A stretch of 64,000 nt of DNA, taken from contig JAHLKI010000004.1 of NCBI GenBank assembly GCA_025602905.1, forward strand, positions 806,001 to 870,000. The letters run 5' to 3'. Shown here piece after piece: positions 43,170 through 48,369 of this stretch. Each line of letters begins with the position of its first letter. The stretch's first letter is position 1. The stretch is from Phlyctochytrium arcticum. Its lineage: Eukaryota; Chytridiomycota; Chytridiomycetes; Chytridiales; Chytridiaceae. Both the position numbers and the translations under genes were made by a program. A model generated the notes under the pieces. It was given only the letters and a program-made list of their open reading frames with translations. It was not told the origin of the DNA and searched no databases.

Positions 43170-43516
43170 GACCTTTTTTTTGTATTTCTTCTTTAGAAGT
43201 ATCTTGACCTTTATGGAGATGTGCCTTGTTATATAGCTGTTGTAGATAGTAAAACATCTCCCGTTTGTATTTTTCCGTACTGGTTTACGAGACGTATTAT
43301 ATCGTGTCAACTAGGCCGCTATTTGGCTATTTCGGAAGTGCAAGTCACGGCCTAACTCACCCCAGAACTCACCCAGACAGACTACAGATCAGCGGACCAA
43401 TCGCGCCATACCCTCAAACAACTTGGGCCATTACCAACCACTGTGCAACGCCTTTGAGCTAGTAAAGACCAGGAGGAAGGACCATTTACCAACGAGGAAA
43501 GATCTTGAAGTACAAG
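43170..43516. other. Intergenic between CHS and EMC2
   Basis: 347 bp; no gene seen. Confidence 0.5.
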
Positions 43517-44464
43517 ATGTTATCCAAGGACGAACTGGCTGCCCTGCGGGTAGGATTCCTCGACGGAGCCACAACCTCCGGCTCCAAGCGCTCGCTACTA
43601 TATGATCCCCAAGAAGTCTCTATATCCGGTCAAATAGCACTCAAGAAGATACCGCATTTGGAGAAGTACTCGCTGCTGGAGCAACTCGTCGTTTCATCCA
43701 TCGATTCTGGGGATGTGGATAGCGCAAAGATGTACCTCACCGACATTGAAAAGCAATTTCCGTTCAAAGCATCGGTGCGAGTGCAAAAGCTGTTTGGATT
43801 ATTGAAGGAGGCGGAAGGCGATCCGGAGGCCTCGCAGGTTATATACGAGACGGCGCTCAAGCAGGATGAAGCGAATTTGAGCGTGCGCAAACGGCAGATT
43901 GCATTACTGATTAGCCAAGGGAAGCGGACTGAGGCCATTACGGAGTTGATTGCACATGTAGATACTTTTATTTTGGACGTGGAGGCGTGGACTGAGTTGG
44001 CGGCGCAGTATATTGCGACGGGCATGTATGCACAGGCGGCCTTTTGTATGGAGGAGATGATGGTTTTGCGACCACAGTGCCATCTATACCAGCTGCGATA
44101 TGCGGACCTGCTGTATACAATGGGCACTTTTGAGGGGGCAGTCAAGTATTATTGTTTGGCTTTGGAGGGGTGTAAGGACAATGTACGAGGATTGTATGGG
44201 TTGCAGTTGGCCTTGGCCAAGGTTTTAAACGAGTTGGAAGGGCCCGCTACGACTGGGTCAAGCGATGGAAAAGAGAACAAGACGGTGGCACTCAAAGAAG
44301 GCAAGGAAAGCCGGGAGAAGCGACGCCTTGTCTGGAAGCAGTTACAGGAGAAGTCCGCGCAACGGTTATCCAAAGTACTTAATGGCGAATCATCAAAAAC
44401 GAGCAAGACAGGAAGGGGCGCCGTCTCTGAGACAGCTTCAAAATGGCTTGATATTTTGAAGTAA
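43517..44464 (+). CDS. EMC2: ER membrane complex subunit 2 (TPR protein)
   Basis: Cytosolic scaffold subunit of the EMC membrane-protein insertase. Single exon of 315 residues from the ATG at 43517. Tandem TPR helices include LTDIEKQFPFKASVRVQKLF, ALKQDEANLSVRKRQIALL, DVEAWTELAAQYIATGMY and YADLLYTMGTFEGAVKYY, a pattern typical of EMC2/TTC35. The last 60 residues are basic and low-complexity. Convergent with PEX4, 131 bp away. Confidence 0.93.
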   Translation: MLSKDELAALRVGFLDGATTSGSKRSLLYDPQEVSISGQIALKKIPHLEKYSLLEQLVVSSIDSGDVDSAKMYLTDIEKQFPFKASVRVQKLFGLLKEAEGDPEASQVIYETALKQDEANLSVRKRQIALLISQGKRTEAITELIAHVDTFILDVEAWTELAAQYIATGMYAQAAFCMEEMMVLRPQCHLYQLRYADLLYTMGTFEGAVKYYCLALEGCKDNVRGLYGLQLALAKVLNELEGPATTGSSDGKENKTVALKEGKESREKRRLVWKQLQEKSAQRLSKVLNGESSKTSKTGRGAVSETASKWLDILK

Positions 44465-44595: not shown

Positions 44596-45266
44596 CTACC
44601 TAAGCGTATGTGTCCCTGGGCTTGCATACAGCTTTGTGTACATTCTTACAAGCGAATTGTATCCTCTTATGTCCCCTGTCCGATGCAAGTTGCCAGCGTC
44701 GCAATTTAGAGGGCTATCAGGTTCCGGTGACTGCATTGGAAGTTTAGTGATGTCAAGCCAGTATCTCCTGGAGTAGATACGTAAACAAGGTAGTCTCACC
44801 GTCAACAAAGCCAATACAGCGACACACAGTGATTGCAGTGTCCAAGCCGGGCTCCACGCCGTTTTCAGAACATCAAGACAAATTTCGCCCGTCTAGACGA
44901 AGTTGAGCAAATATATATGATGCAGTGACAGGCACTGAACCAATACCTTGAAATGGACGTTTGGATGACAGACAGGATGGGAGAAGGTAACTTTGGGGGC
45001 GGCGAGCGGGTATGAGTTGGGGATTTGCATGTCCAAAATAAAAGTTCCGCCTTCTCTTCCTTATCAATATGATTGACGTTGGCCGGTAGATCGTATTTAA
45101 AAATACCTTCATAAGGCGTTCCTGGACCGCCCTGTAGCGTTGCGTGCCAGCGAAACAGATTATCTTCCTCCCGCGGCTGCAGCTCCAGTACTTGCGGATG
45201 ATGGTCGCGGCGAAACTCGCTGTATTCCTTGAGCAGTCGCCGCGAAGCTGCTGTTGTCGTTGTCAT
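44596..45266 (-). CDS. PEX4: Peroxisomal E2 ubiquitin-conjugating enzyme PEX4
   Basis: Monoubiquitinates the import receptor PEX5 for recycling. Four exons (45107-45266, 44947-45050, 44800-44892, 44596-44730) give 163 residues. The UBC fold shows SRRLLKEYSEF, EDNLFRWHATLQGGPGTPYE, VCHPNVHFKTGEICLDVLK with the catalytic Cys, and WSPAWTLQSLCVAVLALL. The C-terminus (SPLNCDAGNLHRTGDIRGYN, then RMYTKLYA) fits PEX4 better than general E2s. No membrane anchor, as expected for PEX4. Divergent from HAC1. Confidence 0.92.
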
Positions 45267-45386
45267 TCCTCTTGATTATTATAGATCTCCACTCTGAAAT
45301 CCTGCGAAATGATTGCCGAAATCCTGGCCGAAATCCGGCAGACAGAATTTCCCGTCGGAGAACCAAAATCTCGCTGCGCCGCTGCG

Positions 45387-45448
45387 GACGTCAGGTCCAT
45401 TGAGTCATAGACTGTGCCGCTGGAACTGGCCAATCATTAGCCTCCACA
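45387..45448 (+). promoter_or_regulatory. bZIP-type and ERSE-like sites upstream of HAC1
   Basis: In the 409-bp divergent spacer 45267-45675 the plus strand holds GACGTCA (45387-45393), TGAGTCA (45401-45407) and CCAAT-N9-CCACA (45430-45448), one base off the mammalian ER stress element CCAAT-N9-CCACG. The grouping ahead of a UPR bZIP gene suggests autoregulation (inference). No other gene lies in the spacer. Confidence 0.45.
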
Positions 45449-45675: not shown

Positions 45676-47087
45676 ATGTCGCTGCTGCCACAAAACACAT
45701 CAACACATACACTTGTGCCGCCAGGGCAGCGGTTACAATCCGACATTGAATCGTATTCTGCATCACCGACCAGTTTGCTCAACCTCTGGGACGCAGAAAC
45801 GTTGGCTTTCCCTGACCTCGACGACCTTGACACTCTATTGGCAGCACCAGCTTTTCCTGCTCCTTTGGGGCCGGTCCCATTAGAAGCGGTTACTGGGGTT
45901 GCCGCTGATACCAATCATCTTGACGCTAATCTCCCACAGAACTATGACTTTGCTAGCCTGGTCCCCTTCTTGTTCAATGAACTCTCCAATTTCCCCACAA
46001 CATATGCCCCGCTCAATGTCTCGCCGCCGAGTAGCGCAACAGACTCTCATCCAATTACTCAAGATTTTGTATTTGGTGATTACCTGGGCGGGACTCATTT
46101 CAAGTCCAGCCAAAGCATCTTACAAACATCAGCGAAACCCCTCTCTCCCAAGACCCTCTCGGTCCCTTCATCAAATCAAATCCCTCTCTCCCCGGTATCC
46201 ATCTCGTCACTTTCCGACCAGTCTGCACCACCACCAGCTCCTATACCCAAGGCTGGACCCCCCGGAAAGAAACAGAAACTATCTCCCGAAGAACGGGAGC
46301 AAAAGTCGCGCGCAAGGTGTGTAAAATTTCGTCTGTTCCTTTTGTCGTGTAGCAACAGATTTATAACACTTTGTACAATAGGGCCATCCGAAATAGGCAG
46401 GCAGCGCAAGATTCCCGAGACAAGAAACGAAAGTTTCTCGACGATCTGGAGGCATCTAATGATCACCTCACTCGTAGAAATCACTACTTGAATGATCGTC
46501 TGGAAAGCGTCGAGCAAGCAAACTCGGCTTTAAAAGCCGAGAATCAAAGTCTTGTCGCGCAACTCGCATCTCTCAACAAACGATTCAAACTCTTGGAATC
46601 GAATCCAAATCTTCTACTTGGCGCTTTGTCATCCGACCCAGCAGCGGTCGCATCCCAGCAGCGGATACTGTCAAAATGGAAGACTTTGGAATCGAAGACC
46701 AGGCCGATTGTGGACTTGAAAGATTCTTCAACTTCGACTCAGGCTCAACATCACCCCGTAGCAGCTACAATAGTGCTGATGCATGTCCTCCATTCGATGA
46801 TTTACCTTATATCGAATTCGGGACTGATCTCACCACTCATTTCTCGCTCGACGACCCTGCAGTCCAAGTCTGAAAATCTAATCTCCAATCAGCATGTTTC
46901 TACTCCCAAGAAGGTTGAACCTTTGCATACAGTGCGAGAAGCCATGCTTTCCTCACATCCCTCCTTGTCCTCCCGCCTCGGATTACTCTCACTACACAAC
47001 AGTCACAAGCAGTGTGCTTCCTCGCCACCGCGTCAAGCTCGTTTTGAGCATTTCCCCGTTTTGAGAACCGTTTGGGCTGGGCTCTAG
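45676..47087 (+). CDS. HAC1: Unfolded-protein-response bZIP factor HAC1/XBP1 with Ire1-type intron
   Basis: Exon 1 is 45676-46316 and exon 2 starts at 46382 (conventional GT-AG intron). The bZIP has KKQKLSPEEREQKSRARA, the DNA-contact motif NRQAAQDSRDKKRKF and a leucine zipper (NDRLESVEQANSALKAENQS). Two readings exist. Unspliced mRNA runs to the stop at 47087, about 448 residues, with a hydrophobic segment (VAATIVLMHVLHSMIYLI). Removal of 46642-46658 (17 nt, between two CNG|CNGN loops) shifts the frame to a stop at 46873, giving about 371 residues with an acidic, aromatic tail (VKMEDFGIEDQADCGLERFF, LPYIEFGTD) like an activation domain. The family is regulated this way in yeasts, filamentous fungi and animals, but usually with introns of 19-26 nt or longer. 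Divergent from PEX4, convergent with ELP6. Confidence 0.93.
46634..46666 (+). promoter_or_regulatory. Twin Ire1 cleavage hairpins bounding a 17-nt unconventional intron
   Basis: Hairpin 1: CGACC (46634-46638), 7-nt loop CAGCAGC, GGTCG (46646-46650). Hairpin 2: ATCC (46652-46655), loop CAGCAGC, GGAT (46663-46666). Both loops fit the Ire1 consensus CNG|CNGN; cuts after 46641 and 46658 remove 17 nt and switch the frame. Confidence 0.85.
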
Positions 47088-47278: not shown

Positions 47279-48178
47279 TCAAATAATACCCGCCGAAAAC
47301 CCTTTTTTGAAAAAGTGGACTCCTCCATCCGCCAGCTTATACAACAAGCACCCAGGAACAAATTCCTTATCTCGTAAGAGAGCCCCTCTACATATTGAGA
47401 TCTGTCCATCAATTCCCTGCGTAGATCCGCTGACCAGAGGATCCACACGGAGTATGTAGTGGCTCAGGTGTTCAACCATGCCGGTCATGCCCGTATGAGA
47501 TGGAGAGGCGTCTTCGTCGGCGTGGAGCCTTATAACTAGCGTTCCGTTGCGCTAAAGAGCAATGAGAAAGGTTGTTTAAGGGGAAGGAATGGGAGGGACA
47601 TACCGAAAATACGAAATCACGGAGTTTGAGGATAAAGGATAAAACCAAGGTGGGGTGAATGCCGGCATAATCCAAAATGGACAGATCGTCGATTATGACA
47701 TGGGGCTTTGATGTCGGTGTTGATGGCGGTGACTTGAAACTTGAGATGACTTGCTCCAGCAATTCATTGAGATCCCTTGGCTCATCACTCTTGTTTATTC
47801 CCCCTGATCCCACACAAGAACTCCCATCCAAAAACTCGAGTTCGCCTCTTGATTCGGCTGCTGGAAAATTTGTACCCTACAAATAAACATGTTTAGCCGG
47901 CTTGAGAGTCGTCCACATGATTGATCACATACGAGTTTTTTGGACACAGAAGCATAATGGGCTTTACTCTGCCCAAATGCGAGGAAAAGAATTTTGGTGG
48001 AGGGGGATAGAGCCCGGGATAGAAAGTAGTGGAGGAGGAAACTACCGGGAGACTCTAGGCGGTCCCGGACTAGAATTAGGCTGGAATTGTCGGATTGGGA
48101 GGAGTGGGGGGTTGGTGCGGGTGGTGTGATGAGGGAGGAGGTCCCCCAATTTAAGGATGTATCTAGACTTGAGAACAT
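47279..48178 (-). CDS. ELP6: Elongator complex subunit ELP6
   Basis: Part of the ELP4-5-6 RecA-like ring of Elongator, needed for tRNA wobble-uridine modification. Three exons (47933-48178, 47604-47876, 47279-47551) give 263 residues. Family-like segments are MFSSLDTSLNWG, LILVRDRLESPGSFLLHYFL, ILFLAFGQSKAHY, IIDDLSILDYAG and the late HYILRVDPLVSG and GVHFFKKGFSAG. It lacks Walker motifs, as usual for ELP6. Assignment rests on remembered family patterns, not a search. Confidence 0.85.
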
Positions 48179-48369
48179 TTGTGGAAGTTCTTTTGCTTTT
48201 CACTCATAGGTTGAGTGCAGGTTGTCGAAACTTGATTTGAGCTCCGGCAAATGAATGGCGCAGTCGATAATGTCACTGCGTTTCTCCGACATCTTGTTGA
48301 TCTTGAGGTCAACATCCAACGGGAGCCCGTCTGCAATCCACCGGGAAGCGTTTTTGCTCCCCTCCGCAA

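Follow-up and report, generated by a model that had tools for sequence, protein, structure and literature searches.

A HAC1/XBP1-like gene of Phlyctochytrium arcticum with a very likely frame-switching 17-nt Ire1 intron and a conserved unspliced tail

Does the zoosporic fungus Phlyctochytrium arcticum (Chytridiomycota, Chytridiales in the NCBI lineage) possess a HAC1/XBP1 gene whose reading frame is switched by the removal of only 17 nt, and what would be the role of the tail that is lost on splicing? We examined this question in a 64,000-nt stretch of the genome, referred to here as the window, where an initial annotation had proposed such a gene. We consider it highly probable that the gene operates by the following scheme. 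From the unspliced mRNA, a protein would first be made whose tail is hydrophobic and conserved. When the ER is stressed, Ire1 would cut CAG'CAGC (the apostrophe marks the cut) in each of two hairpin loops, releasing 17 nt, and the ends would be joined by Trl1 or RtcB. The ribosome would then read a second frame, and the resulting bZIP activator would be shorter and end in an acidic aromatic tail.

The gene, its relatives and the splicing enzymes

The gene occupies positions 45676-47087 and its exons are as follows:
45676..46316, plus strand: exon 1, beginning at the probable start codon; five chytrid homologues share its frame (e.g. FPDLDD, DFVFG, KLSPEERE)
46317..46381, plus strand: predicted ordinary GT-AG intron of 65 nt; joins the frames into a continuous bZIP basic region
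46382..47087, plus strand: exon 2, read in the unspliced frame; stop codon at 47085-47087, protein of 448 residues, tail conserved in the homologues
46380..46544, plus strand: bZIP domain match in exon 2, PF00170 with 34.4 bits (contig C4:852380-852544)

In the protein-level domain search both PF07716 and PF00170 scored above their cut-offs, and protein matches were obtained in five chytrids: Spizellomyces, Powellomyces (Spizellomycetales by its looked-up lineage), two Geranomyces and Borealophlyctis (Rhizophlyctidales). One of these homologues, P0003, carries the UniRef label X-box-binding protein 1. The domains and the homologues agree with the initial assignment, and on its sequence the gene is HAC1/XBP1-like. 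The basic region presumably resembles that of XBP1 as well. Two further alignment-based protein searches brought up no additional chytrid among the 8000 candidates scored in each, and one scan each of viral contigs and genome contigs brought up no DNA of the relatives.

The closest database protein is P0001 (DFS34DRAFT_364569), the public model of the P. arcticum gene itself. It keeps the unspliced tail, but its N-terminus looks wrong, since its exon 1 frame (45884-46324) is used by none of the five homologues. The gene is flanked by an EMC2-like TPR protein, a subunit of the ER membrane complex (43466-44461, plus strand), by a ubiquitin-conjugating-enzyme-like frame that falls below its cut-off (44873-45272, minus strand) and by ELP6-like exons (47472-48199, minus strand). 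Further upstream, several long frames between 3419 and 13187 resemble, as judged by eye, the gag and pol genes of LTR retroelements. An ERSE-like site CCAAT-N9-CCACA at 45430 was rejected as a candidate, as the window holds six matches with at most one mismatch against 4.04 expected, which is not above chance. The pattern CCAAT-N9-CCACG is present 67 times genome-wide, one copy lying at 1115-1133 of the window, compared to 14 times for its reverse; many copies have the common sequence CCAATAAACCTTTCCCACG and probably belong to a repeat element.

A single Ire1 gene was found in the genome, with matches to the kinase and, spread over two exons, an RNase domain. Joined across the intron, the RNase domain gives hits to solved IRE1 chains with E-values down to 1.8e-29, and its RNKKHH is common to three solved IRE1 chains shown among the matches. 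The fungal-type ligase Trl1, with ligase, kinase and phosphodiesterase matches (contig C1:1047001-1054000), is present in the genome as well as RtcB (contig C3, match 416732-417508).

Twin hairpins and the frame switch

Downstream of the zipper lie the elements that the initial annotation had singled out, together with an outer stem:
46634..46650, plus strand: hairpin 1, 5 bp (46634-38/46646-50), loop CAGCAGC at 46639-46645, cut expected after 46641
46652..46666, plus strand: hairpin 2, 4 bp (46652-55/46663-66), loop CAGCAGC at 46656-46662, cut expected after 46658
46642..46658, plus strand: candidate Ire1 intron of 17 nt between the expected cuts, reading CAGCGGTCGCATCCCAG
46600..46623, plus strand: 5' arm of the outer stem (22 bp) in the constrained fold
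46669..46694, plus strand: 3' arm of the outer stem in the constrained fold
46659..46873, plus strand: stretch read in both frames, both open and with positive codon scores; the third frame has 6 stops

The twin hairpins proved correct to the base; all pairs of their stems are Watson-Crick, and both loops fit the yeast Ire1 rule CNG'(C/A)NGN as it is quoted in PMC8104961. We searched both strands for pairs of 7-nt CNGCNGN loops on stems of at least 4 bp with a spacing of 15-60, and this pair was the only one in the 64-kb window, where 0.05 pairs are expected by chance (first-order Markov sequence from the window, 60 runs). No qualifying pair was present in 15 other loci of the P. arcticum genome (56,388 bases, partly overlapping), which take in 8 of its 14 other bZIP places. 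At the rate of the window, about 25 chance pairs are expected in the whole 31 Mb; therefore, the weight of the pair comes from where it lies, close behind the zipper in a HAC1/XBP1-like gene. When the same peptide was recoded synonymously in 200,000 draws, both stems were kept in 0.41% and stems together with loops in 0.079%.

With the hairpins held, 46600-46700 reached -28.4 kcal/mol, compared to a mean of -18.4 (sd 2.36) with shuffled flanks, and none of 500 shuffles was as low. Left free, the same region had a z of -2.32 (7 of 200 shuffles as good), 46580-46720 only -1.00, and 46626-46671 folded alone had +0.38, a stability no better than that of shuffles. The unconstrained fold of 46600-46700 beats the twin-hairpin fold by 1.7 kcal/mol and pairs hairpin 2 differently; the least pair probabilities are 0.62 for the inner four pairs of hairpin 1 and 0.185 for hairpin 2. 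The Rfam model RF04247 likewise carries an outer stem in its structure line. It aligned over 46622-46678 with 23.5 bits (gathering cut-off 41; E 0.054 in 501 bases) and was the sole Rfam match up to E 10 within 46400-46900. It gave nothing at E 10 among the 73 of 1725 candidates scored genome-wide and no match in 10 other P. arcticum loci. On its own, the RF04247 match would not decide the case for the Ire1 intron.

Translation without 46642-46658 changes the 448-residue protein into one of 371 residues with its stop at 46871-46873, so the proposed shift from a stop at 47087 to one at 46873 is borne out. The new tail of 69 residues has 15 D/E, 3 K/R and 9 F/W/Y, and is thus acidic and aromatic as had been noted; excision would shift the frame to an activator-like tail. 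Over 46659-46873 the codon score per codon is 0.108 in the unspliced frame, 0.148 in the spliced frame and -0.211 in the third (training set: 11 long ORFs of the window, some of them retroelement-like). Beyond 46873 the scores are 0.081, 0.007 and -0.048, respectively. The spliced frame scored 0.076 when training was confined to the 8 ORFs that lie outside the retroelement-like stretch. As a control, we took 3028 windows of 212 nt from these 8 ORFs, which overlap and come from the same genes as the training set. In the spliced frame's own shifted register 193 were open, 31 scored as high and none combined the two. Of the 3028 windows, 41 were both open and as high in score when read in the other shifted register, so the control speaks for the register of the spliced frame only.

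The relatives bear on the two frames differently. The models P0002-P0005 have the unspliced tail, all four with SSDPA at the first hairpin, and the Ire1 splicing scheme would explain why these four public chytrid models and the public P. arcticum model carry only that tail. At the position of PAADTVKMED in the spliced frame of P. arcticum, the Borealophlyctis model has PAADVVKRED. After PAA, 5 of 7 residues agree with the spliced frame (p 4e-5, 200,000 shuffles) and 0 of 7 with the unspliced one, and further downstream FVDFES stands against FFNFDS. Past FVDFES the model turns to the conserved hydrophobic tail; since it starts in the second frame and ends in this tail, it probably mixes both frames. 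Of the two tails that were to be compared with zoosporic-fungal homologues, the unspliced one held up, with a clear alignment to the Borealophlyctis tail (0 of 2000 shuffles as good), but the spliced one did not in an unanchored local alignment (p 0.34), being significant only if anchored at the junction. It gave no significant alignment with the annotated tails of the other four relatives, which use the other frame. Worked out by hand, the Spizellomyces peptide could encode the same 17-nt arrangement and the Geranomyces peptides one of 14 or 17 nt. No such arrangement could be placed by hand in the Powellomyces peptide, where DPAVVRQRDN has no obvious coding for the second loop.

One could argue that the gene is HAC1/XBP1-like but that 46642-46658 stays in the mRNA, with Ire1 sites elsewhere or only the unspliced protein being made, and that the hairpins arose by chance. 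Conservation to the stop in relatives concerns the unspliced frame alone, hairpin 2 has a low probability in the ensemble, and the 41 windows of the other shifted register indicate that such codon scores are not rare in general. However, this explanation has to face two consensus loops that are identical and lie where expected, the rarity of the stems among synonymous recodings, the outer-stem test and a second frame that is open and unmatched in its own register, and we regard it as highly improbable. Even less credible is a functionless origin of the twin motif, be it by recent duplication of 17 nt or by an error of assembly or sequencing. The exact 11-nt direct repeat CCCAGCAGCGG at 46637-46647 and 46654-46664, 17 nt apart, would fit such an origin, but the unspliced frame is conserved on either side of the repeat, Spizellomyces P0002 has PAAVASQQR identical to P. 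arcticum across it, and the six bases after each repeat unit hardly agree. Our preferred reading is that 46642-46658 is very likely an Ire1 intron, as far as sequence can tell. In RT-PCR, the 11-nt repeat could yield a false 17-nt deletion via template switching.

The conserved unspliced tail

The initial annotation had treated the unspliced tail only as the part that is replaced on splicing. This still holds in the predicted scheme, but the tail is also conserved in the relatives in its own right. Its two landmarks are:
46758..46814, plus strand: hydrophobic segment of 19 residues, Kyte-Doolittle 1.84, at the same aligned place in all six proteins
47052..47075, plus strand: C-terminal motif FPVLRTVW; F-P-x-L in six of six proteins, W four residues on in five of six

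The hydrophobicity maximum of the full-length protein, taken over 19 residues, falls at this same aligned place in all six chytrid proteins (HPLAT-VV-----SM-Y or near), with Kyte-Doolittle values of 1.62-1.84 and a low helical moment of 0.16-0.21. A comparable peak appears in 2-8% of shuffles of one tail; its weight therefore comes from its conservation. Fifteen columns of the tail alignment are invariant in all six proteins, including the R, F, P and L of R-x3-F-P-x-L. In an AlphaFold model built with 6 sequences (mean pLDDT 61.4), the segment (exon 2 residues 126-145) and the motif (225-232) are helical at low confidence. The tail profile had no match at E 10 among solved protein chains, and the idea that the C-terminal motif is related to the human arrest peptide was dropped, as no similarity was seen (p 0.49-0.97). 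In the P. arcticum gene the segment sits in the dual-coded stretch, and thus splicing would remove it.

According to the accounts in PMC4138184 and PMC6624018, the mRNA of animal XBP1u is brought to the ER by two elements, the hydrophobic region HR2 and a pausing site at the C-terminus, which in the human protein are separated by 52 residues (PMC6624018). The chytrid segments end 71-90 residues before the stop, far enough in all six proteins for the hydrophobic region to have left the ribosome, as predicted from sequence. The tail has the layout of animal XBP1u without its sequence. By this analogy, its likeliest role, towards which we lean slightly, would be to bring the mRNA to the ER membrane while it is being translated. 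More tentatively, chytrid HAC1/XBP1 may recruit its own mRNA to the ER by means of the nascent hydrophobic tail together with its own pausing motif at the C-terminus. One could argue instead that the tail is a membrane anchor as in plant bZIP60, a degron or an inhibitor, and not a recruiter of mRNA; this concerns the unspliced tail only and is compatible with the Ire1 intron. Hydrophobicity over 19 residues and the low moment would suit a transmembrane helix, and bZIP60u is described as a membrane protein (PMC4891664). However, a conserved motif at the extreme C-terminus, at the position of the animal pausing site, is unexpected for a plain anchor, and we find this explanation rather unlikely.

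If mRNA recruitment by the nascent tail is true, the XBP1u mechanism would be older than animals or would have arisen twice. As outlined in PMC4138184, HAC1/XBP1 mRNA reaches Ire1 via a 3'UTR element in budding yeast and via a nascent hydrophobic tail with pausing in animals; S. cerevisiae HAC1 combines the 3'UTR element with a 5'UTR-intron block (PMC4138184, PMC3154848). The budding yeast system of 3'UTR and translational block would then be a later replacement. With the animal layout, Trl1 as well as RtcB and a compact dual-coded intron in one zoosporic fungus, the question which of the two arrangements came first becomes testable.

Comparison with known systems

Among the papers listed by our literature searches we saw none on an XBP1u-like tail in fungi or on the P. 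arcticum gene. A possible function of unspliced hacA in Aspergillus fumigatus, perhaps at the ER membrane, is raised in PMC7580959, and a catalogue of stress genes of anaerobic fungi names Ire1 and Hac1 in passages that give neither sequence nor length of a Hac1 intron (PMC10512342).

The intron had been called unusually short, which stands for fungi but not in general. The fungal HAC1, hacA and HXL1 genes are Ire1-spliced bZIP genes, as the P. arcticum gene is predicted to be, and P. arcticum has Trl1 in its genome, but their introns are at least 19 nt in the figures of PMC3154848 and PMC6222058: 19-29 nt in mammals and some fungi, 56 in Cryptococcus and 252 in S. cerevisiae (PMC3154848), and 19 to 848 nt in the CTG clade (PMC6222058). 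Contrastingly, XBP1 introns of 17 nt with CNG'CNG loops are reported for Lepidoptera and Coleoptera (PMC13027231, 2026), so the notion of a record length was dropped. These are animals, their introns are predicted by alignment, and the likeness is one of description. A 17-nt intron is therefore ordinary within the XBP1 family and short for a fungus. In plant bZIP60, splicing of a 23-nt intron likewise removes a hydrophobic segment of the unspliced form, but that form is an anchored membrane protein; here too we compare by description (PMC4891664).

The point a specialist would not expect is the conserved XBP1u-like tail. In the descriptions consulted, metazoan XBP1 shares with the chytrid gene the bZIP domain, twin 7-nt loops, a short intron, overlapping frames and an acidic spliced tail, as well as an unspliced tail with a hydrophobic region and a conserved C-terminus; it differs in the C-terminal motif itself, which in chytrids is dissimilar to the human arrest peptide, and in the spacing given above.
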